From positions 1 to 64,000 of IMG/VR virus record IMGVR_UViG_3300031963_000004: 64,000 nt of DNA; one strand, given 5' to 3'. Below are positions 1 through 39,998 of the stretch, piece after piece. The position numbers and the translations under genes are program-made. This DNA comes from a virus. Below the pieces are notes generated by a model. It was given only the letters and a program-made list of their open reading frames with translations, did no database searches and was not told the origin of the DNA. How positions within the stretch are numbered: the first letter of the stretch is position 1; each line of letters starts with the position of its first letter.

Positions 1-265
1 CACCTGGAACAGATGATATAATATCTTTTACGGTCATTTGGCGAGTTTGTATTTTAGCATCAGCACCGAACTGTTTTGGAGCACCTGAACTTGGTCCTGG
101 TTGCGGCACGCCTTCAGACATAGATTCACCACCGCCATCACCGCCTCCATTGCCATCACCGCTATAACCACTATAATAAGCGTAGCCAGGAAAAAAGTAA
201 CCACCGTAGTGCTTCTTACTTTTTTTGGTTTTCTTTTTTTCTGTTATGAATTCGTAGGCTCTCAT
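1..265 (-). CDS. Partial capsid-targeted, Gly-rich unknown protein (C-terminus off window)
   Basis: The frame is open from ATG at 265 to the left edge, giving 88 residues without a stop. It starts MRAYEFITEKKK, then has a Lys-rich stretch, a Tyr/Gly-rich stretch and a Gly/Asp repeat at about residues 35-47. The start overlaps the stop of the upstream gene as ATGA (262-265), so the two are probably translationally coupled. The first nine residues match the T4 internal-protein signal (MKTYQEFIAE type) and end in the [L/I]-x-E site cut by prohead proteases. Head packaging is inferred from that signal only. No domain is recognisable in the visible part. Confidence 0.7.
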   Translation of the reverse strand, partial: MRAYEFITEKKKTKKSKKHYGGYFFPGYAYYSGYSGDGNGGGDGGGESMSEGVPQPGPSSGAPKQFGADAKIQTRQMTVKDIISSVPG

Positions 266-678
266 ATATTAAAATATTCTTTACCAATAATTGCACTTGG
301 TGGTATTACACCACTGTATATGTAAGTTTCTTCACCTGTATCATCATCTCTTTGAAAATGCGGATCGGCTCTTAGCAGTTGTTGATTTAACTTATTTTGA
401 TCAATTTTAAAGATTACACCACCTTGATTCATTAATTCTAATATTTGTTTTTCATGTTCAGCATCGGGCTCTATCACACTTGGATCAACAAAACTACTTG
501 CTATATCTGGATAATTACTTAGATACACATAATTTTTATCACTCCAGTCAAACATTCTTAGATTGCCACCAGGCAATAGCCCGCTTTTTAATATACTGGG
601 CTCAAACGCTCTCAATGTCGCATGATATAATGGTTCGTAATCATATGCTATTTCTAAAATAATTTCTGCGGCTCTCAT
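262..678 (-). CDS. Capsid-targeted ADP-ribosyltransferase-fold-like protein
   Basis: 138 residues. The N-terminus MRAAEIILE fits the capsid-targeting and cleavage pattern (I-L-E). The body has PLYHAT at residues 16-21, then a Phe-x-x-Ser-Ile-Leu-x-x-Gly-Leu-Leu-Pro segment, YVYLS at 50-54 and an Ile-rich C-terminus. This order (L-Y-H-x-T, 'xxILxxGLxP', Y-x-Y-L-S) is what KptA/DarT/PARP-like ADP-ribosyltransferase folds show, with His19 and the Tyr of YVYLS as candidate NAD-contacting residues. T4 packages an ADP-ribosyltransferase (Alt) in the head, so the combination makes sense. I cannot point to a clear catalytic Glu, so activity is uncertain. It overlaps its neighbours by 1 and 4 bases. 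Confidence 0.6.
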   Translation of the reverse strand: MRAAEIILEIAYDYEPLYHATLRAFEPSILKSGLLPGGNLRMFDWSDKNYVYLSNYPDIASSFVDPSVIEPDAEHEKQILELMNQGGVIFKIDQNKLNQQLLRADPHFQRDDDTGEETYIYSGVIPPSAIIGKEYFNI

Positions 679-1592
679 TAGTAATCATTCTCTGCTGAGT
701 GATCTAAATTTAGATACAGTTGCCATTGACGATCTGGAAACTTTGATAGATAAGCATTTAACATGGTATTCCAACTACCTGCCATTCTTTCTTGTATCTG
801 ACTAAGTGTGATTGGATCATCACGCATATCCATTATTTGACCATATTCAAGTTCAAGTTCATCCGTGTCATAACCTTCATCTTTGTATTGGTCAACAATG
901 TCATCTACATCACTATCACTTTTAACTGGATGATCATCTAATGATATACCAAAATGGAACTGATATTTTTCGCCTTGATACTCTGGTTGTTTAGGTATTG
1001 CTATTAATATAGGCGCTATACCATGATAATACTTAAACATGTTATTACCTTTAGTAGCGGCAGTACACCAGCGTGTACCTTGACCATAGTAGCATGATGC
1101 AGGTTCATCTTGTGGTACTATTACTCTCCAACTGTCATCTTCGTATAATGTAAATGCAGTACCTTTATCTTTTAGTTGTTGAGCATCAGGATCAGGATAC
1201 TCATCCATAACGCTCATAAAATCACCAAAGTTACTATACTTGTTAATATCGTTGCGTGGACTAGGTATTTTTTTACGCTGAACAAGTTTATAAAATTTAG
1301 TCAAAGAGTCAAATAGATAACCATCTAATACATCTTCAAGTTTTGTACTAGCATCATTCGCATATGTTCTTGCTATCCATTGCACATATTGTTTGTTAGG
1401 TGTAGGATCTGCTTCTTGAAATCTATCTAATGCAAAGCCTAATAATTCTTCTGGATCAATTTGTTGTATTGGATCGTCGCCGTAAATTCTTTGAACTGTA
1501 CGGTCCCCCAACATTTTTTTATAAATCGCTGCACCTAAGTTTTGTACAGTTTTATTACGATCATATTCAATTAAAAATTCTGTTGCTCTCAT
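678..1592 (-). CDS. Capsid-targeted phage protein with GTRWCTA motif
   Basis: 304 residues starting MRATEFLIE, which matches the capsid-targeting consensus (L-I-E). The N-terminal half is helical and acidic. Near the middle a hallmark G-T-R-W-C-T-A lies at residues 172-178, preceded by Cys-Tyr-Tyr-Gly-x-Gly and followed by N-N-M-F-K-Y-Y, then a beta-rich stretch. I have the impression that this 'GTxWC...N.F..Y' core occurs in many phage hypothetical proteins, but I know no established function. The conserved Trp-Cys could be an active-site Cys, which is speculation. The gene starts 3 bases after the upstream stop and ends in a TAATG overlap with the ART-like gene. Confidence 0.65.
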   Translation of the reverse strand: MRATEFLIEYDRNKTVQNLGAAIYKKMLGDRTVQRIYGDDPIQQIDPEELLGFALDRFQEADPTPNKQYVQWIARTYANDASTKLEDVLDGYLFDSLTKFYKLVQRKKIPSPRNDINKYSNFGDFMSVMDEYPDPDAQQLKDKGTAFTLYEDDSWRVIVPQDEPASCYYGQGTRWCTAATKGNNMFKYYHGIAPILIAIPKQPEYQGEKYQFHFGISLDDHPVKSDSDVDDIVDQYKDEGYDTDELELEYGQIMDMRDDPITLSQIQERMAGSWNTMLNAYLSKFPDRQWQLYLNLDHSAENDY

Positions 1593-1595
1593 AGT

Positions 1596-1955
1596 TTATG
1601 CTACTTCTATAATAGGTACAAAGGCACTTTGATACATGTTCCAATCTTTATCCATAACTGTATAAGCTATGTAACGTTTACTTTCAGTATCTTTAACTCG
1701 AAACTTTATAAAAAGATTATTAGTGTTATCATGTAAAAGAAACATATGTCCTGGAGCTAACTGCTTAAGTTTAGCTTTAGCTTTCGGTAATTTATTTAGT
1801 GTATTTATAACTTCATTAGGTGTCCAATCTCGTTGAGCCATTCTATCAAAAAGATGTTTATCTATTATGATAGTGTAATTTCCAACCTGAATGTTACCTG
1901 CATACTCAAATGGTCTGCGTGATTTTTCTTCGGTTAGAAATTCAGTAGCTCTCAT
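1596..1955 (-). CDS. Small capsid-targeted protein, DUF4258/RelE-like fold possible
   Basis: I chose ATG at 1955 over the in-frame ATG at 1970 for two reasons. It gives an ATGA overlap with the upstream stop (1952), and it places MRATEFLTE, the shared capsid signal with an L-T-E site, at the N-terminus. The product is 119 residues. The body reads His-x-x-Phe-Asp-Arg-Met-x-x-Arg-Asp-x-Thr-x-x-Glu-Val, followed by beta strands ending in IAYTVMDKDW. That H...R...R...EV arrangement resembles DUF4258 or BrnT-type small proteins of the RelE-like fold, some of which are RNases. The similarity is by pattern only, so nuclease activity is not claimed. Confidence 0.6.
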   Translation of the reverse strand: MRATEFLTEEKSRRPFEYAGNIQVGNYTIIIDKHLFDRMAQRDWTPNEVINTLNKLPKAKAKLKQLAPGHMFLLHDNTNNLFIKFRVKDTESKRYIAYTVMDKDWNMYQSAFVPIIEVA

Positions 1956-2629
1956 AGATTTCTTTCCCATATTACAAAAGGATCGTTTACTATAATAGTA
2001 CCATCTGGACGCTGCATGTAATTGCCACGGTGTAAGTCTAAACTATAGTTATGTTTTTTAGCAAAATTTTTAACTATGTATACGGTTTGTAATAATGCTT
2101 TAGCCTTATCTAAACCGCCTAGATAATCAATAACTTGGTCAGCTTCAAACCATTCGGGTTCATCGTCATTATCAAAACTATCATGTTGAGCCCAGTCAGC
2201 AATTTTTTCCCATGCTTTAAAATAATCGCCTTTACCTGCGTACTTAGCTGCTTGATCTAATAGGTAAATTACCTTACCTACTGAGTCTGGTAACTCTCGT
2301 AGTTCTTCCATTCTGGCTTGAATATATTTTTTACCTTGAAATTCAAAACTTTCAAAGCCACTAAATTTTGGTAAGTGAGGATTATCAGTATTTTTATTAC
2401 AATAGTTGATCCAATTAACAAACATTTTTTGATCTGGACTAAAATCTAAATAATGTCCTTGACGATAACCAAACACAATAAACACTTGACCGTTTGGCTC
2501 AAGATATGCTTGTTTATCTATACCGCCACCTAGATACTTGTAACCTTTGTCCATCAAAGCCTGTCTAATACCGCCGTGAATCTTACCGGCCATTTCTTCA
2601 AGTTCATTATTAAACTCAAAAAATCTCAC
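1952..2629 (-). CDS. Capsid-targeted protein kinase-like/phosphotransferase-like protein
   Basis: 225 residues starting MRFFEFNNELEE, a looser version of the capsid signal. Near the N-terminus is a GGGIDKQAYL segment like a nucleotide-binding loop region. Near the C-terminus is D198-L-H-R-G-N203, then N-D216-P-F. That spacing (Asp, Asn five residues later, then an Asp-Pro/Phe metal ligand) is the catalytic loop and DFG-equivalent of the aminoglycoside-phosphotransferase/kinase superfamily (HGDLHxxN...D). It probably phosphorylates a protein or small molecule, and the substrate is unknown. It overlaps both neighbours by ATGA. Its presence in the cassette suggests delivery with the genome (inference). 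Confidence 0.6.
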   Translation of the reverse strand: MRFFEFNNELEEMAGKIHGGIRQALMDKGYKYLGGGIDKQAYLEPNGQVFIVFGYRQGHYLDFSPDQKMFVNWINYCNKNTDNPHLPKFSGFESFEFQGKKYIQARMEELRELPDSVGKVIYLLDQAAKYAGKGDYFKAWEKIADWAQHDSFDNDDEPEWFEADQVIDYLGGLDKAKALLQTVYIVKNFAKKHNYSLDLHRGNYMQRPDGTIIVNDPFVIWERNL

Positions 2630-3024
2630 TGGAATATCTCCGGATGTTTCTCACCATATATTTTGATGAACTTACCTGCTAATACATCTGCTTCTTGTTC
2701 AATTGGACTACCAGGATAACTATCACCAGGCTGTATCTGTCCTAACTCACCTTGACGTACATGCACTAATTCATGAAATACTGTGCGTAGTATATCAACT
2801 AAGTTTCTGTTTTTAGCGTAAACCCAAACTTTGTTATCGTCAGTAGTATGACGACCGGTATGATGCCCTTGCTGTGCTTCTTCAGTATCTTTACTGTATT
2901 CAATGTCAGGGATGGTTTCTAGCTTGAGGATTCTCGCAGCCCAATTTACGAAATCGTCTAAGATTTCTTCTTCGTTAGCCACAAGGATATTAGATTTTGA
3001 TTCTGTTATTTCACGAATTTTCAT
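2626..3024 (-). CDS. Capsid-targeted HExxH zinc metallopeptidase-like protein
   Basis: 132 residues. MKIREITE at the start ends in I-T-E like the other capsid-targeted proteins. The zinc-peptidase motif H-E-L-V-H lies at residues 84-88, followed about 20 residues later by E-Q-E-A-D (109-113), whose Glu fits as the third zinc ligand. The protein is small, close to the minimal catalytic domain of gluzincin or SprT-like families. This is the first gene of the cassette 3024 to <1. A late-promoter-like ATAAATA sits only 7 bases before its ATG, with no Shine-Dalgarno sequence. Peptidase activity is inferred from motifs and the target is unknown. Confidence 0.7.
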   Translation of the reverse strand: MKIREITESKSNILVANEEEILDDFVNWAARILKLETIPDIEYSKDTEEAQQGHHTGRHTTDDNKVWVYAKNRNLVDILRTVFHELVHVRQGELGQIQPGDSYPGSPIEQEADVLAGKFIKIYGEKHPEIFQ

Positions 3025-3031
3025 AATCTAG

Positions 3032-3038: not shown

Positions 3039-3040
3039 CG

Positions 3041-3745
3041 CTAGTTCCGCAACTTAGCGAGTTTGAAAAAGCGTAAAATAGTTAGATATATCCAGCCTAT
3101 ATCTACTTCGTAAGGCTTCTTACTAAGTTTAGGATTTGCTGGATCTAGATGATGATTGTTATGTAGTTCTTCGCCACCGATGATTATGCCCCATGGTGCA
3201 ATGTTTTTACTTTGATCTTTGGTCTCACCGTTACGATAACCCCACCAGTGACCTATACCATTGATTACTCCTGCTGCCCAAAAGGGTATCCACAGCATTT
3301 GTACGCCCCATATTATGGCGCCCATCCAACCAAAGACAATGAGGTTGAACACAAGGAGAATACTAATGCCAAGTCTGCTGTGAGGTGTGTATAACTTACG
3401 CTCAATCCAGTCATTAGGAGTACCGATGCCATAAGTATTAACCATCTCTTTATCTTTGCTTGCGTCATTGTATAATAAAGCTCCCTTAAATAATACATGC
3501 CATATACCGTGTGTGACTGGGCTATGTGGATCACCTTCTAGTTCACAGAATCTATGATGTTTACGATGAACTGCGACCCATTGTTTAGTAACCATACCTG
3601 TTGTTAACCATAACCAAAAACGCATGAAGTGGCTAATGATTGGATTAAACTCTATACCTTTATGTGCTTGACCACGATGTAAGTATAAGGTTACACATAT
3701 GATTGTTATGTGTGTTGTGATTAGTGTATATAAAATTGCTGTCAT
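3041..3745 (-). CDS. Acyl-CoA/acyl-lipid delta-9-type fatty acid desaturase
   Basis: 234 residues, an integral-membrane di-iron desaturase. All three histidine boxes are present: H-R-G-Q-A-H (23-28), H-R-K-H-H (60-64) and H-N-N-H-H (195-199), plus G-I-G-H-W-W at 163-168. Hydrophobic segments lie at about 4-20, 40-52 and 127-165. The reaction is introduction of a double bond into a fatty-acyl chain. It is shorter than most bacterial enzymes but keeps every metal-binding box. It is probably an auxiliary metabolic gene that changes host membrane fluidity during infection (inference). It stands alone between the capsid-targeted cassette and a GC-rich spacer. Confidence 0.9.
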   Translation of the reverse strand: MTAILYTLITTHITIICVTLYLHRGQAHKGIEFNPIISHFMRFWLWLTTGMVTKQWVAVHRKHHRFCELEGDPHSPVTHGIWHVLFKGALLYNDASKDKEMVNTYGIGTPNDWIERKLYTPHSRLGISILLVFNLIVFGWMGAIIWGVQMLWIPFWAAGVINGIGHWWGYRNGETKDQSKNIAPWGIIIGGEELHNNHHLDPANPKLSKKPYEVDIGWIYLTILRFFKLAKLRN

Positions 3746-3772
3746 AATTGCTCACTTTAACTCTATTTTGGG

Positions 3773-4157: not shown

Positions 4158-4357
4158 TTTTTGTCCCTTTTAGAAACTGCATCTTTTAACATACTTTTGA
4201 GAAGTAAGATAACACGGTTCTTTTCTTTCTCAGTCAAGTATTTAACTAAGATTAACTTGTCATCATAACTTTTTGCGTTATCTAAAAACTCTTCGGGGAC
4301 TGTTAGTTTGGGTTTTTTGAACTTTTTTAGATTCGCTTTGATATCATCGTCGCTCAT
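4154..4357 (-). CDS. Small charged unknown protein (67 residues)
   Basis: MSDDDIKANL start, Lys-rich, mostly helical, no membrane segment. It begins at the last base of the upstream stop (TAATG at 4357) and ends in an ATGA overlap, so it belongs to the coupled small-gene run. No recognisable family. The high Lys content might suit nucleic-acid binding, which is only a guess. Confidence 0.6.
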   Translation of the reverse strand: MSDDDIKANLKKFKKPKLTVPEEFLDNAKSYDDKLILVKYLTEKEKNRVILLLKSMLKDAVSKRDKK

Positions 4358-4542
4358 TAATTTAATTTCGTCACATTCACTACGCTATCATCACCATACG
4401 CTGCGTTTAATAAGGCTTTAGCCTGTGACAAATCATCAGCAAATACAACTGTTTTGACTGTTAGTGAACCTGACTTACCAGTTTTGATTTTTAAGGTAGC
4501 AGAGTATTTGTTTATTTTATCTAAAAAGTCTTTAGCTTTCAT
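4357..4542 (-). CDS. Small unknown protein (61 residues)
   Basis: MKAKDFLDKINKY followed by a beta-alpha-beta-like body (TVKTVVFADDLSQAKALLNAAYG). The compact alternation of strands and a helix suggests a folded domain. No family is recognised. The N-terminus superficially resembles the capsid signal but lacks an [L/I]-x-E site in the right place. It is coupled to the next gene by a TAATG overlap. Confidence 0.6.
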   Translation of the reverse strand: MKAKDFLDKINKYSATLKIKTGKSGSLTVKTVVFADDLSQAKALLNAAYGDDSVVNVTKLN

Positions 4543-4549: not shown

Positions 4550-4615
4550 TTAATGTTCCCCGTATGGGACTACTGGACGATCATCATCTGGGTTTGGGGT
4601 ATTTGGATCTCTCAT
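4550..4615 (-). CDS. Tiny 21-residue peptide, translationally coupled
   Basis: MRDPNTPNPDDDRPVVPYGEH, rich in Pro and Asp. Its ATG overlaps the stop of the Dps-like gene as ATGA (4612-4615), the same arrangement as elsewhere in the cluster. That overlap is the main support. At this length chance cannot be excluded. Confidence 0.35.
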   Translation of the reverse strand: MRDPNTPNPDDDRPVVPYGEH

Positions 4616-5052
4616 GCTCTATCTACTTTAAGAAAACTACGTAACATCCAACCATGTTTACCATGGGCATCGATACGTTCTGCTATGTAGTTTGCGATAG
4701 CTTGATTTTCTTCGTTTGCTAAGGGAAAAATAGCATTTAATAATTCAATAATTTTTAAGTTATCTTCATATAATTCAGCAAGCATTAATTCAGCACGTGG
4801 TATCTTGACCTGATCTTGAATTATACTTAATTCCATAAATCTTGCTAAACTGCCAGGAGTATATTGGTCAAGAACACGAATAAATTCTGCTGTTCTATCG
4901 ATAGAATTTTCAAATACTTCTGTGTTTAACTCATCTAAGAATTTGTGATATTCTGAAAAATTAGGACCCTCGACATTCCAATGGAAGTTATGTGCTTTTA
5001 AATAAAACACAAAACTACTTGCTAATAATATTTTTAACTGTTCTGCTAACAT
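4612..5052 (-). CDS. Dps-like ferritin (DNA-protecting, iron-binding) protein
   Basis: 146 residues, close to the Dps norm of about 150-170 without a long N-terminal tail. The ferroxidase signature is visible: H24-W-N-V-x-G-P with H36 and D40 at the expected 12- and 4-residue spacing, and D52...E56 from the partner subunit. Dps dodecamers oxidise and store iron and shield DNA from peroxide. The missing Lys-rich tail suggests iron detoxification rather than strong DNA binding. The start has a good Shine-Dalgarno sequence (AGAGGA). It is unusual as phage cargo but fits an auxiliary stress-protection gene. Confidence 0.85.
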   Translation of the reverse strand: MLAEQLKILLASSFVFYLKAHNFHWNVEGPNFSEYHKFLDELNTEVFENSIDRTAEFIRVLDQYTPGSLARFMELSIIQDQVKIPRAELMLAELYEDNLKIIELLNAIFPLANEENQAIANYIAERIDAHGKHGWMLRSFLKVDRA

Positions 5053-5060: not shown

Positions 5061-6233
5061 TTAGTGTTTCAATAGTAATGTACTCAACACGCCAGGATCT
5101 CTAGCAGTTAAATCTGGTTCGCCAGGAGTAATAATAACATTGTACTTCATCTGTGGATTCTTTCTACCCTTAGTTTCCCATTCATTGTATGTAAGAATAC
5201 TATTTGCACTGATACCATATTCGCCGGCTAATCTTTGTTTTAGTTCAGGGATCTTGTCAGGTATAACCTGCCATTGGCCTTGTGGACCCTTAACAAGATT
5301 TTTCTTTTCATCCTTAACTAACAAATCATAGAATAAGTTTGTTGGAACAATGCGACTATTTTTTGTTTGTGCTAAACTTGGATCCGCTGCTTTAACTTTC
5401 TTTTCTTGTGAAGTATGTGCACCTTCACTCCAGTTAATCATAAAGTTATTTGGCTTCTGACCTAATACAACATCAGCAACTTTAGTATAAGCATAGAACA
5501 GTACATTTGGATTAGATTGTGCTAGATTATACGCTAATTGAATATATTCTGGGCTAAAGAAGTCACCTGAATCATGCCAGCGAATAGTTACATTATATCC
5601 TGCTTTTTGTCCTTTAGCAACCTCTTTTTTAATCTCATTATCTAGTTGATTGAAGAAACCACTTGGATCATTAAGTAAATATGTTAGCATTCTTGCTCTG
5701 CTTAACCAGGCCGCTTCAAATTGTACAAAGCCACCTTTCATAGCAAAGCAATCTACTTTACAACTACCTGCTCCGGGACATGTGTTTACTATAATTAATT
5801 TACCGGTAGATTCATCTAAAGCAATACCAACTAATGCAGCAAAGCCAACATTAAAGAATTGTTCTTCAGCACCATCACTGTGCTTCATCTTTTCATTTTT
5901 CTTTAATATCTTATCTGGTCTTATTGATAAAGCTTGTTTAATATCTTCTTCTCTATAACGTTTACCCGAAGCATCATAGTATTTTACAACACTACTACGG
6001 TGAACATATGGTAACTTATATTTGTCTGTTTTACCTTTTTCTTGACCTGCAATACGACCCATGTAATCTTGAAATTCTTCATCACCAAACTCTCTTGATG
6101 GTGCAGGTAATTTAGTAGCTTCATCTACTTCTTGCTCTCCTGCTTGTGCTACGAACTCCTCAGGGCTCATAATTTGAACACCCGGTAATGCACCAGGCAT
6201 CTCGCTTTCTAATAGTAAGTCTGTAATTTTCAT
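5061..6233 (-). CDS. Capsid-targeted GP88-family-like protein with Cys motif
   Basis: 390 residues. It starts MKITDLLLESEMPG, with an L-L-E cleavage-type site after residue 9. The core contains C152-P-G-A-G-S-C158-x3-C162, then R-W-H-D-S-G-D (218-224) and F-Y-A-Y-T-K. These are the landmarks of the phage GP88-type family (CPGA..C...C, R.H.SGDF, Y.YTK), whose function is not established. The three Cys could bind a metal or cluster. The start overlaps the upstream stop as ATGA. Packaging inside the head is inferred from the N-terminus. Confidence 0.65.
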   Translation of the reverse strand: MKITDLLLESEMPGALPGVQIMSPEEFVAQAGEQEVDEATKLPAPSREFGDEEFQDYMGRIAGQEKGKTDKYKLPYVHRSSVVKYYDASGKRYREEDIKQALSIRPDKILKKNEKMKHSDGAEEQFFNVGFAALVGIALDESTGKLIIVNTCPGAGSCKVDCFAMKGGFVQFEAAWLSRARMLTYLLNDPSGFFNQLDNEIKKEVAKGQKAGYNVTIRWHDSGDFFSPEYIQLAYNLAQSNPNVLFYAYTKVADVVLGQKPNNFMINWSEGAHTSQEKKVKAADPSLAQTKNSRIVPTNLFYDLLVKDEKKNLVKGPQGQWQVIPDKIPELKQRLAGEYGISANSILTYNEWETKGRKNPQMKYNVIITPGEPDLTARDPGVLSTLLLKH

Positions 6234-8035
6234 TTGTTTGGTGTACCTGTAACTTTATTGTGTATCATAGTCCTAATATCTGCTTTTACATCATCTCCGA
6301 ATGTAGGACTTGTAACTGTATTTAATGCTCTTCCGATAGTAGACAACAAACCTAATCCTTTTCTAACATCCATACCTTGCTTAGGTTCTTGTTGCTGTGG
6401 TTGTTGATCTTTAATATAATATGGATCAGTCTCCTGTTCCTTAACCTTGTACTTATTTTTTAACTCTCTTGTTTTAGCCCAACGCTCATCATCAGGCATA
6501 TCATATGTTGCTTTTAATTCTCTGTAATATTCAGGATCAGGCAATCCAGATTTTTTTCTTAATTCCTGATGACGCCTATGTAGTTTTTCTTGCGTTGATT
6601 CTTTGTCTGTTTCTTCTAAGTTAGCGTTACCTTGTTGAGGCACCATTCTAACGTTAACACCTTTTGGTACAGTGGTGTTAATGGTCATTTCATCACCTAA
6701 TTCTCTACTTGTATCCATCCCTCTTACTAGAGTATTTCCTTGACTATCTGGTCTAATAGATGCAGTTCTTCTATTAAAAGTTTCTTCACCATCTCTATTC
6801 ACGTAATTTTTTGTAGAATACATATAGGAAGGAGAAGATGCAGGAGGATTTTGTTCTAACACTGCCTCATGCTGCTCAATCATCTTACCTTCTAAATATT
6901 GTGCAACTGAGTTTAAGTAATCATTTGCTTTAGTTATTTTAGCCTGTACCCAACCATCAAGACCTTGTATTTCGCTTACATCTCTTATGCAGTGAAATAT
7001 TTTTTCTGCATCTTTGGCTGCTGCAATTAACTGTGACCTAGCCATTTCAACTTCGTGGTCAGATTTCTTAGGCATTAATTCTGGTTTAAATTTAATACCT
7101 TGACCTGGCATTAATAGTAATTCATCTTCGGTTACACGGGCTTCAATCATACCTTGTAGTATTGCACTTTCCGCTACACCTTTACTTCCACGATTTTTCC
7201 ACTTTACACCATGTATATTATCTAATCGTTTGACTTCAGATTTACTCAATGCAGTTAAATCTCTGGCATATTTTTGATTAAATCCTTCTGGATCTTCGCC
7301 AGCACCATACTTATCTGTAGCTTTATGTATTAATCCGGTTTTAGTTCTTGTTACTTCACCTTCCGCCACACCTTGCCCTCTGTCGTAAATACCAGGTGAG
7401 CCTACTTTACTTCTTGGATCTCCATATACTTTGTATACTTGATCGGTAGGTTCATTGCCTTTAGCAGGTCTAACATCAGTGATGATTGAGCCTCTTCCTA
7501 GCGCATAGTTAATCTTATCCTTAGCATCATATTCATCATCAGCGGAAACTAAGACAGTACGTGTATCGTCAGACAGATTGTTGTAATATGTTACAACAAA
7601 TTTTGTGTCTGTACCTTCCGTCACACCTCCACTCGTAGCAGATTTACTCTTGTTCATTTGACCCCCTCTGTTCTGTAAATCCTTAGCAATTTCTTTTTCG
7701 TCAAATGGTCTTCCAATGAATGAAGTAATTTTGTCAAAGAAGTTTTCATCAACTTGTGATTTTAAACCTTGCTTCATTTCTTCTTTTGATTTGCCGTATT
7801 TTTTCATAAACTCTCTATCTTTTAATTCACGTAGGTCCATAATTAGTTGCTTTACACTACCTTCTTTTAAGTTCTTAGGCTTTTTACCAGCTTTCTTCAT
7901 TGAAACGGCAATAGCTGCTTGTTGAGCAGGATTAGCTGCTTCTTCAGCCCTTCTTTTCATTTTACCCATTTTAGAAGGTGCGGGTGCAACTGATCCAGAT
8001 ACTGTTGCGCCCACTGACATTTCGTTTATTTTCAT
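6230..8035 (-). CDS. Modular internal/scaffold-like protein with repeated V-x-E-G sites
   Basis: I start it at ATG 8035 (MKINEMSVG, 601 residues), 11 bases after the fibre gene stop. The longer in-frame start at 8077 would run into that gene and lacks a signal. The sequence is low in complexity at both ends and holds several short modules joined by GVTEG, GVAEG and GVAES. These junctions fit a prohead-protease-type (hydrophobic-x-Glu) site. One module, a TKFVV...SADDEYDAKDKI segment, looks like a small beta-alpha domain. The C-terminal third is charged, with Gln/Pro runs. I read it as a polyprotein of the phage head core, cut on maturation (inference). No enzyme motif is seen. Confidence 0.55.
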   Translation of the reverse strand: MKINEMSVGATVSGSVAPAPSKMGKMKRRAEEAANPAQQAAIAVSMKKAGKKPKNLKEGSVKQLIMDLRELKDREFMKKYGKSKEEMKQGLKSQVDENFFDKITSFIGRPFDEKEIAKDLQNRGGQMNKSKSATSGGVTEGTDTKFVVTYYNNLSDDTRTVLVSADDEYDAKDKINYALGRGSIITDVRPAKGNEPTDQVYKVYGDPRSKVGSPGIYDRGQGVAEGEVTRTKTGLIHKATDKYGAGEDPEGFNQKYARDLTALSKSEVKRLDNIHGVKWKNRGSKGVAESAILQGMIEARVTEDELLLMPGQGIKFKPELMPKKSDHEVEMARSQLIAAAKDAEKIFHCIRDVSEIQGLDGWVQAKITKANDYLNSVAQYLEGKMIEQHEAVLEQNPPASSPSYMYSTKNYVNRDGEETFNRRTASIRPDSQGNTLVRGMDTSRELGDEMTINTTVPKGVNVRMVPQQGNANLEETDKESTQEKLHRRHQELRKKSGLPDPEYYRELKATYDMPDDERWAKTRELKNKYKVKEQETDPYYIKDQQPQQQEPKQGMDVRKGLGLLSTIGRALNTVTSPTFGDDVKADIRTMIHNKVTGTPNK

Positions 8036-12925: not shown

Positions 12926-13807
12926 CTAAGGTCTTAATAGTGGCGGTATCCCCGCACGACTAACTTTACTGCCTAATTTTTTAGCATTGTCTTGTATACT
13001 ATATGGAGTAACGTCAACTGTTAATGCTGTTTTAAATCTTGGGTCATTCTTTTGTTTTGGGCTAGGAATATAACCACTAGCTCCTTCTACCATAGATTCA
13101 GGTAAACTCAATTGATTACTATGTAATTCATCTCGTTTGTTTCTTAGCTTCTCAATTATACCTTTACTACGCAATGCCTTAAAGGCTAAGTTTTCAGGAC
13201 TGAACTCACCATGCATGTCTAATCCTGTTTGTCTATATTTTTTAATTGTAGCTAAAACATGATTCATGCTTTCATAATCTGCATGTTTAAGTGCAAGATT
13301 AGCTAGTCTAGCTAGTTTATTAAACTTCAATTTAGCTGAGGCCTGATCAGGATCGGCTTTACGCTTTCTTGGTAATCTAATCCATTTGTCAAAAACAATA
13401 CTGTACTCACCTAAACTGATGACGGGTTGATTTGTGTCTTGAACGTATAATTCAACATCATATCCCCCTATAGTAATATCATGTGTATTGTTATATAGAA
13501 TCTTTTTAGCATCAAATAATTCGCGGTATATAACATCATTCTCTAAAGCATTTATATCCACTAAAATGTGCAAATCTATGTCACTGTGCTTAGTATAGGT
13601 ATAAGCTGCATTACTTCCCGATAATGTTACATCGGAAACATTAAGATGAGGAATACCCAAATGATCTACGAAATCTTCTGCTATAACAAGTAACTGTTTA
13701 CGGACCTCAGGATCCATTCTGTCGCCGTTGAAAATGACTGGATTTAATTCATTGTGAAAGAAAATCGCATCGTGTAGGTTAAACTGTTCTATTTCTCTAA
13801 GGTTCAT
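12926..13807 (-). CDS. Nucleotidyltransferase-fold protein with cleavable-looking C-terminal module
   Basis: 293 residues. The pol-beta-type nucleotidyltransferase signature is clear: G64-S65, then D76-x-D78 (HSDIDLHILVD), with a later acidic residue in GGYDVELYV. This fits MNT/kanamycin-type transferases that move an NMP to a protein or small molecule. After residue ~235 comes SMVEG and then a separate module (ASGYIPSPKQKNDPRF...TVDV...RAGIPPLL). The V-E-G junction resembles those in the modular head proteins. The mRNA is probably leaderless: ATAAATA lies 4 bases before ATG and no Shine-Dalgarno sequence is present. Substrate unknown. Confidence 0.65.
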   Translation of the reverse strand: MNLREIEQFNLHDAIFFHNELNPVIFNGDRMDPEVRKQLLVIAEDFVDHLGIPHLNVSDVTLSGSNAAYTYTKHSDIDLHILVDINALENDVIYRELFDAKKILYNNTHDITIGGYDVELYVQDTNQPVISLGEYSIVFDKWIRLPRKRKADPDQASAKLKFNKLARLANLALKHADYESMNHVLATIKKYRQTGLDMHGEFSPENLAFKALRSKGIIEKLRNKRDELHSNQLSLPESMVEGASGYIPSPKQKNDPRFKTALTVDVTPYSIQDNAKKLGSKVSRAGIPPLLRP

Positions 13808-17195: not shown

Positions 17196-17900
17196 TCAGA
17201 CTTTTTGCTGAATTTTATAGATTTTTCCTACGTAATCACCCATACTCAATCTCAGTAAGGTTTCATCCGACTCGTTATCATAATCTACGAAAAAAGCATT
17301 ACTACAATATCTATATCTCCAATAACGAATTTTCTTGTCTGTACCATTTAACCAAGTCTTTAGTGCCGAACAGGGGTAAAAAGTCGTGTTGTGTCTTTGA
17401 AAGAACTCAGCCATTTCATCGTGCATTTCTAAACTAATATTTTTTGCTCTTAGATATAGTCTAAATTTATGCTTTGGATTTTTTCTATATAGTGTATCCG
17501 GATTAGCTAATAAATTTACTCTTGTGTATTTTATTTTTGGATTGTTTAACTTACACAGAGTTTCTAGTTCGGCTAATTTTGACAAATCGTTACTGTACAC
17601 GGATCCTGTCTTATAATCAATTCGTACCATACAGTCAGGTCCATTATTAATAGTTTTCCAAATAGTAAAACTATCTAAAAAAGCCTTGTTACTAGGAAAA
17701 TGAACCTTATTTGCAGAAGTATCAACAGGTATAGAAATAAGAATTGTGTCCCGAACTCTATTTAATAGAACGTTTTCTAACTCTCTAACCGTTTTTGCAT
17801 ATCTAGTACAATGCAGTAACTCGGCAGTAAAACTAGCTTTGTATAGAAACTTATTAAAAAACAAAGTTTGCTTGTCTACTACCTTGAATACCTTATTCAA
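17196..17900 (-). CDS. Unknown protein downstream of ClpA-like gene
   Basis: 234 residues, basic and rich in Tyr/Asn/Lys, no signal or membrane segment. It starts MNKVFKVVDKQTLFFNKFLYK and overlaps the ClpA-like gene by 8 bases, so it is in the same operon. Recurrent YRKNPKHKFRLYLRAKN and IRYWRYRYCSNAFFVDY segments suggest a folded alpha/beta protein. An adaptor or substrate of the unfoldase is possible from position alone. No family recognised. Confidence 0.55.
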   Translation of the reverse strand: MNKVFKVVDKQTLFFNKFLYKASFTAELLHCTRYAKTVRELENVLLNRVRDTILISIPVDTSANKVHFPSNKAFLDSFTIWKTINNGPDCMVRIDYKTGSVYSNDLSKLAELETLCKLNNPKIKYTRVNLLANPDTLYRKNPKHKFRLYLRAKNISLEMHDEMAEFFQRHNTTFYPCSALKTWLNGTDKKIRYWRYRYCSNAFFVDYDNESDETLLRLSMGDYVGKIYKIQQKV

Positions 17901-24891: not shown

Positions 24892-25217
24892 TTTTTCAAC
24901 ATTTCTAATGTGATTATTTTACCCAATGCATCTCCTAAATCTTCTCCGCTAGGTATAATATGCAAAACTTTTCTAGGATAGTTAACTTGTATTGAACTAG
25001 GGTTATAGTCATTCATAGTCATTTCTAAAACATGACCACCTGTTGCAGGGTACAATGTAAAATTTAATGATGATGTTTCAATACTTCTTGTGCTATACAC
25101 TTTGCTGCTACTAATAGCTTGCCCATATTGGGGTTCAACCTCATCTCTTTCTACCTGTGCGCTGTTCCATGCTTCTATAGACCATTGCTTAAATTTTTTC
25201 TTTAACCATTTCTTCAT
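24888..25217 (-). CDS. Unknown basic protein between clamp loader and GroES-like gene
   Basis: 109 residues. The very basic N-terminal helix (MKKWLKKKFKQW) is followed by a beta-rich body (SSLNFTLYPATGGHVLEMTM, NYPRKVLHIIPSG). The basic amphipathic start could bind DNA or membrane. It overlaps both neighbours (TAATG and ATGA). No family recognised. Confidence 0.55.
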   Translation of the reverse strand: MKKWLKKKFKQWSIEAWNSAQVERDEVEPQYGQAISSSKVYSTRSIETSSLNFTLYPATGGHVLEMTMNDYNPSSIQVNYPRKVLHIIPSGEDLGDALGKIITLEMLKK

Positions 25218-25579
25218 TAGATGACCTTATTGCTCATAGTTTCGTCTTGTACAGGAGTATCGCTAATTAATAGAATATCATTTGGGTCTACTCTACGAAT
25301 AGTTTTTTCTCCCTGCTCATCTTCTATTTTAATACCTCTGCTCCAACGACCGTGAGCAATTAGGATATATTGACCAATTTTTACTGATTCTTGTTCTGGA
25401 CCTATAGCATATACTTTAGCCCATCTTGGTCTGATACCAGAATTTTTCATATCATCATTTGGAATAATGATGCCACTATGTGTGATTCTTTCATCAAAGA
25501 CCATATCGGATACGATAATGTTATCTCGTATGGCTCTAAGTTCAGTTACTTTATGAGGTTGGTAAGCAAATTCTTCCAT
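25217..25579 (-). CDS. GroES/gp31-like cochaperonin
   Basis: 120 residues. It has the chaperonin-10 pattern: LRAIRDNIIVSDMVFDE, a mobile loop-like segment with S-G-I-I-I-P (about 35-40), then R-x-x-K-V-Y-A-I-G-P and V-K-I-G-Q-Y-I-L-I. It is slightly longer than bacterial GroES, like T4 gp31, which replaces GroES on GroEL so that the major capsid protein can fold. First gene of the clamp-loader operon. The promoter TTTACA-N17-TATAAT ends 6 bases before ATG and no ribosome site is present. Confidence 0.85.
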   Translation of the reverse strand: MEEFAYQPHKVTELRAIRDNIIVSDMVFDERITHSGIIIPNDDMKNSGIRPRWAKVYAIGPEQESVKIGQYILIAHGRWSRGIKIEDEQGEKTIRRVDPNDILLISDTPVQDETMSNKVI

Positions 25580-34486: not shown

Positions 34487-37400
34487 TCACTTGATACCGC
34501 TGAGTTTCTTCCACTCATATAGAACATCTTTTGACTTTGATTCAGTCACTTTAACACTTGTATGTGGTAGAGTTGTCTGATCACGCTTTTGACGGTTTAA
34601 GCCACCGGTAATAAAGTTAGTCATAAACTCAATGTCTTGCGTAGCCTCATTTGGCTCGTTTTCAAATGATTCTTCAACGTGGTCACAACCGCAGCTACTT
34701 TCGTTCATTCCGCACTCGTTGCACATAGGCTCATCACCTTCTTCTAGGCTACTTGTATCTTTGTACTTTTTACCGTCGATTTCGAATTCTTCGCCAGGTG
34801 GTGTTTGACTTAGCTTTTCTGTAAATTCATTGCCTTCGTCAGCTTGACCATATGCTTCGTCTACTTCTTTCTCTTTTCTATGATCTTCTTCATCAGAGCC
34901 TTTTTCAATCTGGTCTTCTTCCTCGCCTTCATCTTCTTCTCCTTCTGGTTTGTGCATAGTATCGCCTGCATTGTCAACAGGCACTTCATCAGCATAATCT
35001 TCACCAGAGCTTTGCTGAGGTGCTGCACTTAAGCCTGCCATTTTCTTAATTAGTTCTAGCACACTGTCGCCACCATCAATAACTTCAGGCCCGTCAACTG
35101 ATACCATTTCTATGCCACCATTGTCGCTACTATCACTTGTCATAGGAGCACCATATGGTGATGATTGTGATTGTTCTCCGCCACCGAAAATACCACCCAT
35201 TCCAGCGTTCTTTAATAATGCGATTAACTCACCTGCGTCACCCTCAGTAGCAGTAACAGTAACACTATCGTTACCGTCTGAGCTTGTGTTGGTGTTTATA
35301 CTAATGTTCTCGTTGAGTAATGAATCTAAGTCATTAGCCCAACTTTCAAATTGTCTATCCATATCTACGTTTTCTTTCATTGGTTTTTTATCTGACTTGT
35401 TAGGCTTATTAATGTCTATTGCATTTGGATATACTGGATCCATTGGTACCGGCATAGGTACATCTTTTTGACCCTTCTTAGGAGGATCACTACTCCACGT
35501 GCCTGTTAATTCACCTGGCTTATCGCCGCCCTTAATAGAACCTTCTTTCATCTTGCTTGCTTCTTTTACAGTTACTGGATGAGTTTCACCACCGAACTTG
35601 AATACATCTCTTCCTTCATCTTTGGCTTGCTTAGCTGCCCAAGCAAAAGGACCTTCTGCTACTGGTTCTTCTACTACTGGCTGAGGCATCATTGGTGACT
35701 CGCCCATTATTTTATCTTTCTTTGAATACTTGTGTAGGTCTAATGCATCACGTAGTGCTTCACTCATATGACCAGTTGTTTTGTATTCTTCAATGTGTGA
35801 TTGTAACTCCATCAACATTTCTTCAATGCTCATCTGAGTTTCACGCATCATTTGGCTAAAGTTAATACCTTCTTTAACTTTCTTTTTGTTTCTTAATGCG
35901 GCAAAATCTTTTGAATCTAACTTACCTTTTGGTTCAGCAACATCAAGATTCTTTTGACCGCCTTTTAATGCTTCTTTAACATTATCTGGACTTGGCTTCT
36001 TACCTGCTGCTTTCATATGAGCATCATATTCACCTTTGCTTACTTCACGGCTGTTGACTGTATATTTTTCTTCGTCAACTTTCTTAGCGATTTCATGACC
36101 TTTCTTGATAACTTTCTTTGGAAGATCAGTTGCTGGTTTTGAACCGTAGCCTGCTTGTTTCTTAGCAGCAGCCATACCAATCGCATATTTGTTCTTTGCT
36201 CTTTCTGCAATCATTTCTTCAGTAGAATCGATCCAGTCTTTTAATTTTTTCTTTTTGGCAGCAGCTTTGGCAGCTTTTTCTCTTTCCTCTTCTTTTCTCA
36301 ACCATGCTTCTTCGTCGGCTGGAGCAGATTTTGGTTTTTTGTCTGATATTGTATGAACTTTGCCTTTAGCTGATTTTCCAGGTTGACCTTTAATAACCTT
36401 GGATCCTGCGTCACTAGCACCTTGCCATTTTTTAGCATCTTTAGTAGCGTCACTTTCTTGACCGCCGCGACTTTTTACTTCTTTTTCTTCACCTTCTTCA
36501 TCAGTATCGTATGCTTTACCATACTTACCTGTATGTTTTTTGCCCTTAAGGTCAGCCATCTTAGATGCTTCGTACATTAATTCAAGCATTTGTCTCATAT
36601 CAGTTTGATTTACATGAGATTCAGAAATTTCTTTTTTAGGTGTTGTACTAGCTAAAGATTTAATTCTATTGAGTTGCTCTAAATCTTCTTTGAACCAATT
36701 GAGTGGATTCAATTTACTACCTAAGGCTTTGAGATTTTCCCAATTCTTTTCGCCTTGCTCTCTTTCTTTTTCTTGCCAACCTGGACCAGGATATTGACCG
36801 CCTCTATAAGGATGTTTTGTATCCCATTCAATTTCATCTTCACTACGTGTACCTACAACACCTCTTTGATATTTTTTATCAGTTAAATCAGGGCCTGCTT
36901 TAGGTTCTGCTTTAGGTTCTGGTTCTGCGTATCTTGATCTATTTTCAATAGGAGGCAATTCGTTACCTAAAGTTTTATCGTTATCACCTGTACCATCTCT
37001 TTGATACCACTTACTTAACTCAGCTTTATCAACGGGTTCACTTGAATAGCCAGGTCCTGGTCCTTGCGCTGCTTTTAATGCGCTTTGTAATCCAGGACTA
37101 CCTTTTAATCTCTCTCTTGCAGCAGTTGCTTCCCAATCTACATTTGCATATGGGTCTACTTTATTCTGTATCGGTGCCGGCGCACTATCACGCTTAAATG
37201 TTGGGTGATCACGTACAGGAAATACATTATCATCTCTTGTTTGTTCTGTGTCATACGCTGGTTTTTCACCAGGGCCTAAATGCGATGGACGATAATCTGT
37301 ATCGGGAATAACATTAGTTGTATTAGGAACAACATTAGTTGTATTAGGGACAACATTAGTTGTATTAGGGACATCGGACGCAGGGAAATTTTGTTCCCAT

Positions 37401-38134
37401 GGTTCATATGGTCTTTCAGGGTTTGTTGGTGTTACAACTTCATTACCATCTTTATCTTTCGTAAGAAGATACGTTAGGCCGCTACCTGCCAATGCACTTG
37501 CAGCCATAGCCTTTCCTATGTTGCCTGGAGAAGTTTTAATACTTCCAGACTTACTTGCTGCTGGTTCACCTTTTTCTGCCGCCGCCGCCATTTTTTCCGC
37601 TGCTCCGGCTTCTTTCTCTGCTGCTTTGATATAATCAGCAGCCAATGATGAAGTTTTAGGATCAAATGTAGTTGGTACTTCTTTACCTGTAGCAGTACTT
37701 TTAGGTGTTACAACATTCTTAGGTCTGAAATCTGGCCTAGGAGCAGCTGCCGGCTTACCTTTAGAAGCAGAACCTTGCATGCCAGTAAATGTAGTCGGCA
37801 CATCTTTACCTGTAACAGTACTCTTGGGTACAGCTTTTCCATCCTTAGGCTCAAATTTTGGTCTAGCATCAGCAGGATAAGGTTTCGATGGTCTTTCTGC
37901 ATTAGGCTTGACATCAGATGGATATTTTAGTGGTGCGTTATATTTTACATCTTTGGGTTGAGGAGCTTTGTTTTGAGCATATGGACCTTGAGACATTTTT
38001 TCTTGTCTACCAGCGAATCTTTGAGTAGCTGTTCCACCTTTTTCTCCGGCGCCGGCAACTCTAGTAGCACCTTTTTCTATTCTGGTGGCTGCATCAGTAA
38101 CTGCCTCATATATGTTTATGTCTTTGATTTTCAT
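34487..38134 (-). CDS. Giant modular capsid-targeted/scaffold-like polyprotein
   Basis: 1215 residues. It begins MKIKDINIYEAV (I-Y-E cleavage-type site). Layout: Lys/Pro/Ala-rich N-terminal third with T-x-x-GK-[DE]-VPTTF repeated twice, a hydrophobic Ala/Gly segment (~205-225), a VPNTTNV tandem repeat, Lys/Ala-rich helices in the middle, many V-x-E-G, I-S-E and V-K-E-type junctions, an acidic C-terminal third, and a Cys cluster C-N-E-C-G...C-G-C near the end. The final residues read YEWKKLSGIK. It looks like a head-core or internal polyprotein cut at many Glu sites during maturation. No enzyme motif is seen. Confidence 0.6.
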   Translation of the reverse strand: MKIKDINIYEAVTDAATRIEKGATRVAGAGEKGGTATQRFAGRQEKMSQGPYAQNKAPQPKDVKYNAPLKYPSDVKPNAERPSKPYPADARPKFEPKDGKAVPKSTVTGKDVPTTFTGMQGSASKGKPAAAPRPDFRPKNVVTPKSTATGKEVPTTFDPKTSSLAADYIKAAEKEAGAAEKMAAAAEKGEPAASKSGSIKTSPGNIGKAMAASALAGSGLTYLLTKDKDGNEVVTPTNPERPYEPWEQNFPASDVPNTTNVVPNTTNVVPNTTNVIPDTDYRPSHLGPGEKPAYDTEQTRDDNVFPVRDHPTFKRDSAPAPIQNKVDPYANVDWEATAARERLKGSPGLQSALKAAQGPGPGYSSEPVDKAELSKWYQRDGTGDNDKTLGNELPPIENRSRYAEPEPKAEPKAGPDLTDKKYQRGVVGTRSEDEIEWDTKHPYRGGQYPGPGWQEKEREQGEKNWENLKALGSKLNPLNWFKEDLEQLNRIKSLASTTPKKEISESHVNQTDMRQMLELMYEASKMADLKGKKHTGKYGKAYDTDEEGEEKEVKSRGGQESDATKDAKKWQGASDAGSKVIKGQPGKSAKGKVHTISDKKPKSAPADEEAWLRKEEEREKAAKAAAKKKKLKDWIDSTEEMIAERAKNKYAIGMAAAKKQAGYGSKPATDLPKKVIKKGHEIAKKVDEEKYTVNSREVSKGEYDAHMKAAGKKPSPDNVKEALKGGQKNLDVAEPKGKLDSKDFAALRNKKKVKEGINFSQMMRETQMSIEEMLMELQSHIEEYKTTGHMSEALRDALDLHKYSKKDKIMGESPMMPQPVVEEPVAEGPFAWAAKQAKDEGRDVFKFGGETHPVTVKEASKMKEGSIKGGDKPGELTGTWSSDPPKKGQKDVPMPVPMDPVYPNAIDINKPNKSDKKPMKENVDMDRQFESWANDLDSLLNENISINTNTSSDGNDSVTVTATEGDAGELIALLKNAGMGGIFGGGEQSQSSPYGAPMTSDSSDNGGIEMVSVDGPEVIDGGDSVLELIKKMAGLSAAPQQSSGEDYADEVPVDNAGDTMHKPEGEEDEGEEEDQIEKGSDEEDHRKEKEVDEAYGQADEGNEFTEKLSQTPPGEEFEIDGKKYKDTSSLEEGDEPMCNECGMNESSCGCDHVEESFENEPNEATQDIEFMTNFITGGLNRQKRDQTTLPHTSVKVTESKSKDVLYEWKKLSGIK
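37310..37372. repeat. Three tandem 21-base repeats
   Basis: Unit AACATTAGTTGTATTAGG(A/G)AC occurs three times head to tail inside the 1215-residue gene and encodes the seven-residue VPNTTNV repeat; a diverged fourth partial copy precedes it. Confidence 0.9.
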
Positions 38135-38140
38135 TTTTTA

Positions 38141-38908
38141 TTACCTATAATTAATTAGATATTTAAGGCGTTCTTCAAACACACGATAATCTTCTGCTCC
38201 ATAATATGGATCGGTTGGATCATATTTTTTCACACCTTTTTCTACTGCCTTTGTTGCTGCAATACCACCTGTTAAGTCCGTCGCTACTTTAGCAGGTATC
38301 GTTACTGCTTTCTTCCCGATATTTTTAGCTGTTTGCCCTGCTACAGGAGTAAAAGCTTTTTTAACTGTTCCGGGCAGTACCTTTCCGGCTGCATATCGTG
38401 CTACTTTTGCACCGCCTAAAAATGCAGGGTTTACTAATAAACCACCGACATCACCTACGGTTGATGCAACTGGATACTTATCTCGTAATTCAGCAGATTT
38501 TGCATATTGTTTTTCTTTTTCTTGCTCATATCTTTTAGTCCAGTCATCGGAACCACTGAGTGGTTTATCAAATGCACTTCCTGCTGTCTTTACTGCCGCT
38601 AATGCTTTATCACCATATCCAAACGTTGCAGTATTTAATGCGCCTCTTGCACCTGCTTGCGCTATTTCACCTGCTGTACTTAAAGCCTTACTTGGATCTT
38701 TCTTTGCTGCTTCCCAACCTCTGCCCATCTGAGCAGCAATTTGATCACGTTTGTCTATGATGTCACCTGTAGCCGTAGCAGCTTTTTTACCTAAATCGTA
38801 TATTGCTTTAGGTGCGTGAGCTACTTCTTTTCCCACTTCGGCGCCAAATTCTCTGGTAGCATCCCACCATGATTTTTCAGCCTCAGTTATGATTTCAGTT
38901 ATTTTCAT
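38141..38908 (-). CDS. Capsid-targeted internal/ejection-like protein
   Basis: 255 residues. MKITEIITEAEKSW fits the capsid signal with an I-T-E site. The body is Ala/Gly/Lys-rich and helical. It includes AQAGARGALNTATFGYGDKALAAVK, an EKEKQYAKSAELRDKYPVAS segment and GLLVNPAFLGGAKVAR, a layout seen in phage internal virion or DNA-ejection proteins that interact with membranes. Weakly hydrophobic glycine-rich stretches (~85-125, 150-200) may insert into the membrane on ejection (inference). Confidence 0.6.
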   Translation of the reverse strand: MKITEIITEAEKSWWDATREFGAEVGKEVAHAPKAIYDLGKKAATATGDIIDKRDQIAAQMGRGWEAAKKDPSKALSTAGEIAQAGARGALNTATFGYGDKALAAVKTAGSAFDKPLSGSDDWTKRYEQEKEKQYAKSAELRDKYPVASTVGDVGGLLVNPAFLGGAKVARYAAGKVLPGTVKKAFTPVAGQTAKNIGKKAVTIPAKVATDLTGGIAATKAVEKGVKKYDPTDPYYGAEDYRVFEERLKYLINYR

Positions 38909-39174
38909 TTTTTTATATCATCCCCTGGTCTTGGTTTGAAGAAAGGACCAGCAGCACGATTATCGCCTGCTTTATAGGCTTTTAACTGACGCTGATATGT
39001 TGCTTCATCGTCGGCTTTCTTACTAGGTAATCCAAGTGCTGCTCTTTGTTTCTCCTCAGCATTTGCCATTTCATCATCAGTAGGTTCAGGTCCTGTAAGT
39101 TGAACTCCAGGTTGTCCAGCTACAACTCTTTCAGAGAGAATGTCTAAGTATTTTCTAAAAAATGTGGCGTCCAT
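38905..39174 (-). CDS. Small capsid-targeted protein (89 residues)
   Basis: MDATFFRKYLDILSERVVAGQPG start: an amphipathic helix ending in L-S-E, the prohead-protease-type site. The rest is Pro/Asp/Lys-rich and disordered. It overlaps the next gene by ATGA. It resembles small head-core peptides of T4-like phages in layout, not in sequence. Function unknown. Confidence 0.55.
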   Translation of the reverse strand: MDATFFRKYLDILSERVVAGQPGVQLTGPEPTDDEMANAEEKQRAALGLPSKKADDEATYQRQLKAYKAGDNRAAGPFFKPRPGDDIKK

Positions 39175-39186
39175 TATAATTCTCTT

Positions 39187-39402
39187 TTACTTTTTAATCG
39201 TATCTAATTTTTCTTCGATTCTATCTAACTGAGCTTGTAGCACTGTCAACTTTTCATTGGTAGCCTGTGCTTTAATATTGCTAATTTCTATTTTCTTATC
39301 CAGTTCACCTACAGTAGAGGTTATAGTTAAATAACCACCGCCCCCTAAACTGCAAGCACCTACTACTATCCAAGATAATTGACCCGTGCTAAAATCTAAC
39401 AT
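39187..39402 (-). CDS. Small membrane-anchored coiled-coil protein (71 residues)
   Basis: A hydrophobic segment at about 9-28 (LSWIVVGACSLGGGGYLTIT) is followed by a charged helical region with heptads (IKAQATNEKLTVLQAQLDRIEEKLDTIKK). This is the build of small phage membrane proteins of the holin/antiholin or spanin-helper type, or of a virion membrane anchor. The stop/start overlap (TAATG, 39402) couples it to the upstream gene. Function unknown. Confidence 0.6.
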   Translation of the reverse strand: MLDFSTGQLSWIVVGACSLGGGGYLTITSTVGELDKKIEISNIKAQATNEKLTVLQAQLDRIEEKLDTIKK

Positions 39403-39998
39403 TACTTACTTGCTCCTGTACTTGGCTTTGGAGGACGATTGATTTTAGTCATAGGACTCTTAGTTTGTATGCCCTCTTTGGAATTGTTTTTGATCGTTGG
39501 GGTTTTCTTACCGTCATATGGAATATCTATACTTGGCTTTTTAGGAATCACTTTGTCTAGATATTGATTTGCATAATCCTTACTTGCTTGTTTTGATGTT
39601 GGATTATCTTCCATATTAGGTTCGGTGAGCAAAGTATCAGGTTGATTTGCATAACCTTCTGCTTCACTGTTTAAACCATCTTCGTGATCTTGAGTGAATA
39701 CTCTTACTGCATTGATATTTTTACCTAGTAACTGAGCAATTTGTTGAATCATTGGTTCTGTTGCTGGGTATTTGAATTCTGCTTTGATGATATTGACACT
39801 AGAATTTTGATGATCAGGGAACCCATATGGGTCTTTTTGAATTGGGGTAGACTTAGCATCACTTACAGATACTGGATCGAACTTGTTCAAGTTGTACTTA
39901 AACATGTCCATAAATTTACTGTCGATATCTCCAGCTATCTTTATCGTATAGCGATAAGTTCTTACACTTTCTGTCAAATATTGGCGAAGGCTTTTCAT
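39402..39998 (-). CDS. Capsid-targeted T4-like conserved protein
   Basis: 198 residues. MKSLRQYLTESVRTYRYTIKIAGD: the first ten residues match the T4 internal-protein signal most closely (MKTYQEFIAE) with an L-T-E site, but continue directly into a folded domain (FMDMFKYNLNKFDPVSVSDAK, QKDPYGFPDHQ, FKYPATEPMIQQIAQLLG). The C-terminal third is Lys/Pro/Asn-rich and disordered. I recall similar proteins in marine T4-like phages without a known function. Late promoter 19 bases upstream, AGGAATT ribosome site. Confidence 0.6.
   Translation of the reverse strand: MKSLRQYLTESVRTYRYTIKIAGDIDSKFMDMFKYNLNKFDPVSVSDAKSTPIQKDPYGFPDHQNSSVNIIKAEFKYPATEPMIQQIAQLLGKNINAVRVFTQDHEDGLNSEAEGYANQPDTLLTEPNMEDNPTSKQASKDYANQYLDKVIPKKPSIDIPYDGKKTPTIKNNSKEGIQTKSPMTKINRPPKPSTGASK

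Follow-up and report, generated by a model that had tools for sequence, protein, structure and literature searches.

The question raised by this locus is why a phage should begin so many unrelated proteins with the same few residues, and what becomes of those residues later. The window analysed here, bases 1-64,000 of the 223,151-base virus record IMGVR_UViG_3300031963_000004, holds two groups of genes whose products share a short N-terminus resembling the capsid-targeting leader of phage T4 internal proteins. We consider it likely that these leaders load both single cargo proteins and cargo polyproteins, and that the head protease gp21 removes the leader and also cleaves between modules, at the joints. 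The N-terminal part of the leader, M[KR]xxE[FLI], would tie the nascent cargo to the prohead core. Cleavage by gp21 after the terminal [LIV]xE would then free the mature protein inside the head, to be injected with the DNA. The same tripeptide, without the targeting half, would join modules within longer proteins. Cargo could therefore take two forms, a lone domain behind its own leader or a polyprotein, often with one leader, that gp21 would cut, and modules could be exchanged between the two.

A first-pass annotation had listed eleven such leaders and a weaker MKINEMS (8035). All twelve N-termini were found, on the minus strand, and its count of [L/I]-x-E in ten of the eleven is correct; the sole exception, at 2629, begins with GTG and carries N-N-E (VRFFEFNNE). 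With gene starts taken from a simple caller, the expression M[KR]x2-3[EDQ][FLIV]x1-3E matched 10 of 189 gene starts and 3 of 1049 internal methionines, and on average 0.43 (maximum 4) in 2000 shuffles. A leave-one-out profile gave 12 of 201 genes a score of at least 5 (shuffled mean 0.58, maximum 4, 300 shuffles), and a clear gap separates the leader genes from the bulk. The leader is conserved at the protein level, since the codons vary synonymously. Two listed candidates fared less well. MDATFFRKYLDILSE (39174) scored 1.0, which lends it no support, and it is kept as a weak candidate only; MKSLRQYLTE (39998) does not pass the window profile, yet it is close to the 10-residue form of T4 and cyanophages, and it has a virion-detected homologue. 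Six further carriers or leader-like starts were found, one overlooked within the window (4357) and five outside it (64694, 65032, 68360, 90124 and 173089). No replication enzyme carries the leader: the only replication-related match to the expression, the thymidylate synthase MKQYHDLLEDILE (94796), fails the profile. In related phages the signal, as the first-pass annotation had proposed to look for it, or at least a leader-like start, stands ahead of unrelated domains: chitinase plus LysM, ParB-like and cytidine deaminase. The leader genes and candidate polyproteins of the window are the following (a slash marks the predicted cut; L numbers denote relatives).

1-265, minus strand: MRAYEFITE and a Lys/Gly-rich module (KKKTKKSKK..YFFPGYAYY..GGGDGGGES); the gene is cut off by the end of the record.
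262-678, minus strand: MRAAEIILE and a 'YHAT' domain of unproven fold; an internal polyprotein module in L024, L025 and L026.
678-1592, minus strand: MRATEFLIE and a 'GTRWCTAA' domain; homologue of virion-detected PA5oct gp205 (MKLFEVFTLYE).
1596-1955, minus strand: MRATEFLTE and a possible ribonuclease (RNase); weak RegB/colicin E5 matches, E about 0.01-0.04.
1952-2629, minus strand: VRFFEFNNE (GTG start, no [LI]xE) and a protein-kinase-like domain (phrog_15752, E=1e-6).
2626-3024, minus strand: MKIREITE and an HExxH zincin-like metallopeptidase; first gene of the leader run from 3024 to 1.
4357-4542, minus strand: leader-like MKAKDFLDK, without a cleavage site, from the profile.
5061-6233, minus strand: MKITDLLLE, a second site EVDE/ATKLPA and a GP88 domain (PF17338, 3e-27).
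6230-8035, minus strand: candidate polyprotein with an MKINE start and joints GGVTE, QGVAE and KGVAE.
12926-13807, minus strand: Pol-beta nucleotidyltransferase-like domain and a module at the joint SMVE/GASGYIP; no clear leader.
14847-16622, minus strand: cytidylyltransferase/NMNAT-like domain and segments after QLTE, KLTE and DLAE; no leader.
34487-38134, minus strand: MKIKDINIYE on a 1215-residue low-complexity protein, from the profile; conserved in L027.
38141-38908, minus strand: MKITEIITE and an Ala/Gly-rich protein; leader identical in L027.
38905-39174, minus strand: MDATFFRKYLDILSE, the weak candidate (profile score 1.0).
39402-39998, minus strand: MKSLRQYLTE, a leader of T4/cyanophage form; homologue of virion-detected PA5oct gp202, with a late-promoter-like motif upstream.

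The longer proteins are tied to the single-domain ones by their modules. Modules that stand behind a leader in one phage sit inside multidomain proteins of another, and the homology starts right after [LIVMF]xE in both. The relatives of 262-678 are internal modules whose 79% identity begins just past GVAE, DVAE or MAE, which occupies the place of the leader end (MRAAEIILE); thus MRAAEIILE/..YEPLYHAT corresponds to GVAE/..REPLYHAT, and in the same way MRAHEFVTE/NFADG to QGVAE/NFADG and MRAEEFISE/KWSRK to EQVDE/KWSNK. Comparison of the post-leader modules with 711 proteins gave further cases (NFADG, KWS, CWxGY, Lys/Gly-rich and metallopeptidase modules), and 11 of 15 placements lay within 2 residues of [LIVMF]xE, against 1.7 expected at random. 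When all internal homology starts were taken, an unbiased set that includes many tail-fibre repeats, the tripeptide was present on both sides in 56 of 313 (random expectation 8.8, maximum 25 in 2000 trials). For eight modules it precedes 40 of 43 distinct contexts, those in T4-like cyanophages included, compared with 14% at random, and the unrelated contexts agree in the cleavage tripeptide rather than in the targeting half. Raw counts of GVAE in the window phage alone (3 copies) are not significant against permutations and were set aside; the signal lies at module boundaries. Within the window, joints of this type occur in 6230-8035, 12926-13807, 14847-16622 and the two-site GP88 propeptide. 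Several effector-type domains per polypeptide are seen in L020, L025 and L018, the window having only 6230-8035, 12926-13807 and 14847-16622 as candidates. In T4 the residues for targeting (4 and 7) and for processing (8 and 10) are separable within the leader (PMC9026906), and a separate cleavage tripeptide at the joints fits those genetics. A T4 leader in which Asp stands in place of the cleavage Glu still targets its protein but escapes processing.

The best of the rival explanations accepts the leader as truly capsid-targeting, and takes the [LIV]xE at the joints for a conserved module edge or Glu-rich linker, with the multidomain proteins entering the head whole, as may happen with polyvalent proteins. 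We infer cleavage at the joints, as we do injection and activity in the host, and this counts both for the rival and against our own reading. [LIVMF]xE is also common, at about 14% of sequence windows, and the N4 virion RNA polymerase is packaged unprocessed (PMC5512222). Against it, unrelated contexts share the tripeptide and not their neighbours, and the tripeptide replaces the leader tail at the same position. We regard uncut packaging as unlikely.

Cleavage by gp21, the reading we prefer, would require a suitable protease, and the 223-kb genome encodes one of the gp21 type (Peptidase_S77 match, E=2e-30). It lies in a head module of portal, a small protein in the gp67 position with the leader-like start MKLFEMFDK, gp21 protease, gp22-like scaffold and gp23. 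In the major capsid protein all four [LI]xE lie within the 43-residue propeptide (residues 1-43), and the other 355 residues (44-398) are free of them; the last of the four, LAE, comes just ahead of the conserved SSAGTTTAGN. In the scaffold 21 were observed and 7.7 expected. This pattern is the signature of a predicted T4-type protease with L/I-x-E specificity, which is the stated gp21 cleavage rule for T4 (PMC9026906). The capsid protein is 64-67% identical to those of PA5oct, Rak2-like phages, Vibrio 2.275.O and Phosso, and by this measure the window phage is placed near them; a near-identity DNA search of phage records gave no match. The sequence [TG]ATAAATA, which resembles the T4 late promoter, has 42 genomic copies. 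In 25 of these a gene follows within 60 nucleotides (nt), where 0.96 would be expected. Two leader-bearing stretches open with the motif, and copies lie upstream of 2626-3024 (GATAAATA, at 15 nt), 39402-39998, 65032 and 173089. The scaffold C-terminal motif, [FI]KxLAGL, is found as a tail on both 21558-22097 and G000:174951-176051, that is, on an unrelated protein too. A LAG-type tail common to the cargo was considered and rejected, there being too few copies.

The record of PA5oct, a relative that has been cultured, flags proteins detected in virions by electrospray tandem mass spectrometry (ESI-MS/MS). A profile trained only on the window phage was applied blind to 90 detected (MS+) and 325 undetected (MS-) open reading frames, with the first 10 kb of the PA5oct genome left out. 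Eight N-termini scored above 5, and six of these are MS+ (odds ratio 11.5, Fisher P=0.0017; P=0.006-0.025 at other thresholds). Enrichment is confined to the top ranks, and over all ranks it is not significant (Mann-Whitney P=0.6), as expected since most virion proteins have no leader. The PA5oct homologues of 678, 39402, 65032 and 173089 (205, 202, 237 and 150, respectively) are all four MS+. Between the window protein 678-1592 and gp205, M1, E5 and E9 of the leader are invariant, though the proteins are only 28% identical. In the first 50 kb of phage CBB there is one strong profile match, and its two MS proteins there have no leader.

The leader might instead direct proteins to the tail, the baseplate or a chaperone such as the phage ClpA homologue. 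The PA5oct spectra do not separate head from tail, and the carriers at 34-40 kb adjoin tail genes. Against this, the cleavage tripeptide fits a head protease, the PA5oct protein encoded between portal and gp21 has the leader MKINDIITE, and there is the T4 precedent; we think such routing very improbable. About as improbable is that detection in PA5oct reflects contamination by abundant late proteins, with the leader having another role. Ribonucleotide reductase, thymidylate synthase and ClpP are indeed in the list, so that presence there is by itself no proof of packaging. The leader matches are, however, enriched over that same background, and the gp22 scaffold homologue is MS-, as expected if gp21 destroys it. 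Chance, or a 5' translation element common to the genes, draws on the shortness of the leader and is scarcely credible in view of the shuffle controls, the synonymous codon variation and the persistence of the leader in proteins whose domain is down to 25% identity.

Several observations weigh against the reading of gp21-cleaved cargo, among them the two cytoplasmic enzymes of nucleotide metabolism just named. Five carriers lack a cleavage site (1952, 4357, 64694, 65032 and 173089). Leader cargo is depleted of [LI]xE, a real but weak effect (observed/expected 0.76, compared with 1.29). At the joints P3 is often V, as in GVAE, while T4 gp21 prefers L or I. For some polyproteins the called start shows no leader (L024 3600-7520, L020 364-5004 and 14847 in the window), and the module contexts, coming from related phages, share ancestry and are not fully independent. 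Packaging and cleavage in the window phage itself have been deduced and are counted here too. In several relative contigs, which are fragments, gp21 was not found. The interpretation given in the first pass, that the phage packages an unusually large set of internal proteins, is nonetheless supported by the protease, the capsid signature and the detection in PA5oct virions. It was incomplete in that the cleavage half recurs at polyprotein joints.

T4-like cyanophages have these short modules too, within the terminase/head operon, with leaders such as MKSFKQFQE/SWSNKYKK. Homologues of the Bellamy polyprotein were found in 466 public phage records, mostly annotated as hypothetical. The virion proteome of S-SCSM1 has been measured by mass spectrometry (PMC9602691); its polyprotein SSCSM1_29 (S-SCSM1_29), with predicted joints at GVSE/GTLHKW, LFNE/DCWDGY and GLNE/KGRKSY, bears the label virion protein, which UvsY, UvsW, the late sigma factor and terminase lack. 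NMNAT/cytidylyltransferase proteins are reported from virions of S-SM1 (PMC3037559) and of S-SCSM1 and S-CBWM1 (PMC9602691), and the cytidylyltransferases of related cyanophages start with MKNFHQFITE, MKKFSAFLTE or MRSFLTFLTE.

As to the cargo itself, family matches suggest a metallopeptidase (HExxH), a kinase-like protein, a possible RNase (weak) and a GP88 protein in the window. The Lys/Gly-rich module of 1-265 follows SLDE inside polyproteins of relatives, and the HExxH metallopeptidase of 2626-3024 is a polyprotein module in L018, L020, L021 and L026. In L018:3096-3977 a dCMP/cytidine deaminase is joined to an HExxH module via ISE. Among relatives of 1596-1955, M1, A3, E5, F6 and E9 of the leader are invariant; scans for relatives of the kinase-like protein 1952-2629 found none. 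An ADP-ribosyltransferase (ART) label for 262-678 was dropped, there being no Pfam or PDB match and an AlphaFold2 (AF2) confidence (pLDDT) of 46. For 678-1592, Foldseek against the PDB gave nothing significant, and BFVD returned PA5oct gp205 together with uncharacterised proteins of phages and of Marseillevirus. Structures matching the GTRWCTAA domain thus occur in Marseillevirus proteins, and one more match is in Caulobacter jumbo phage CcrBL9; none is a solved fold, and Salicola phage SCTP-2 has seven places matching the domain.

Some neighbouring genes are unusual. A fatty acid desaturase (3041-3745; PF00487, 3e-15), unusual for a phage, adjoins the leader gene run and is kept in L018 (2368-3072). 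A Dps/ferritin-like protein (4612-5052; PF00210, 5e-19) lies without a leader within the cargo cluster and is possibly a DNA-protecting cargo; similar genes adjoin leader genes in L018-L020, L024 and L026. A chaperone set, ClpA-like (17893-20169), DnaJ-like (20180-20989) and GroES-like (25217-25579), is named from homologous PA5oct genes that carry the annotations ClpA, DnaJ and chaperonin.

T-even phages are known to place leaders on unrelated internal proteins (PMC12373910, PMC9026906). T4 IPI-III and Alt share with the present set a short leader on unrelated proteins, a terminal L/I-x-E and a gp21-type protease (PMC9026906, PMC12373910), and T4 internal proteins also share late expression and predicted enzymes among the cargo. 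The window phage differs in a 9-residue form, M[KR]xxE[FLI]xxE, in place of the T4 10-mer, in having about a dozen carriers, several with metallopeptidase-, kinase- or RNase-like matches, and in reusing the cleavage half at joints within multidomain proteins, as do its relatives. The name polyvalent proteins (Iyer et al. 2017, PMC5512222) covers multidomain, presumably injected proteins encoded by phages and conjugative elements, and these likewise have metallopeptidase, ParB and Pol-beta nucleotidyltransferase domains. That account proposes metallopeptidase autoproteolysis or C-terminal assemblin domains, unlike the present case, and in the part drawn on here there is no capsid-targeting leader, no [LIV]xE joint cut in trans and no exchange with single-domain leader proteins. 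In phiKZ and SPN3US the head protease also strips propeptides from many packaged proteins, but from inner-body and ejection proteins that are not modular polyproteins, and at a different motif (PMC9026906; PMC10052503). No description of head-protease joints between exchangeable cargo modules was found in the open-access literature, subscription papers lying outside the search. The leader set adds a case to a known type, and the joint or polyprotein format is a new variation on what is known.

Because leader-tagged proteins recur as chains joined by the head-protease signal, these phages probably carry and inject an effector kit, made in part as cleavable polyproteins. On balance we favour, with less assurance, the broader view that polyproteins cleaved by the head protease are how T4-like phages, most marine cyanophages among them, produce the cargo they package. 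In this view [LIV]xE is a universal joint by which modules pass freely between single leader-tagged genes and polyproteins, and the strategy delivers a mixture of injected effectors and DNA-binding peptides. The leader and the [LIV]xE joints give a sequence rule that predicts which of the many uncharacterised genes in T4-like jumbo phages and cyanophages have products that reach the host at time zero, and at which residues the mature proteins start and end, a prediction testable at once on existing virion mass-spectrometry data. If the joints are cut, tailed phages would use polyproteins for effector packaging.

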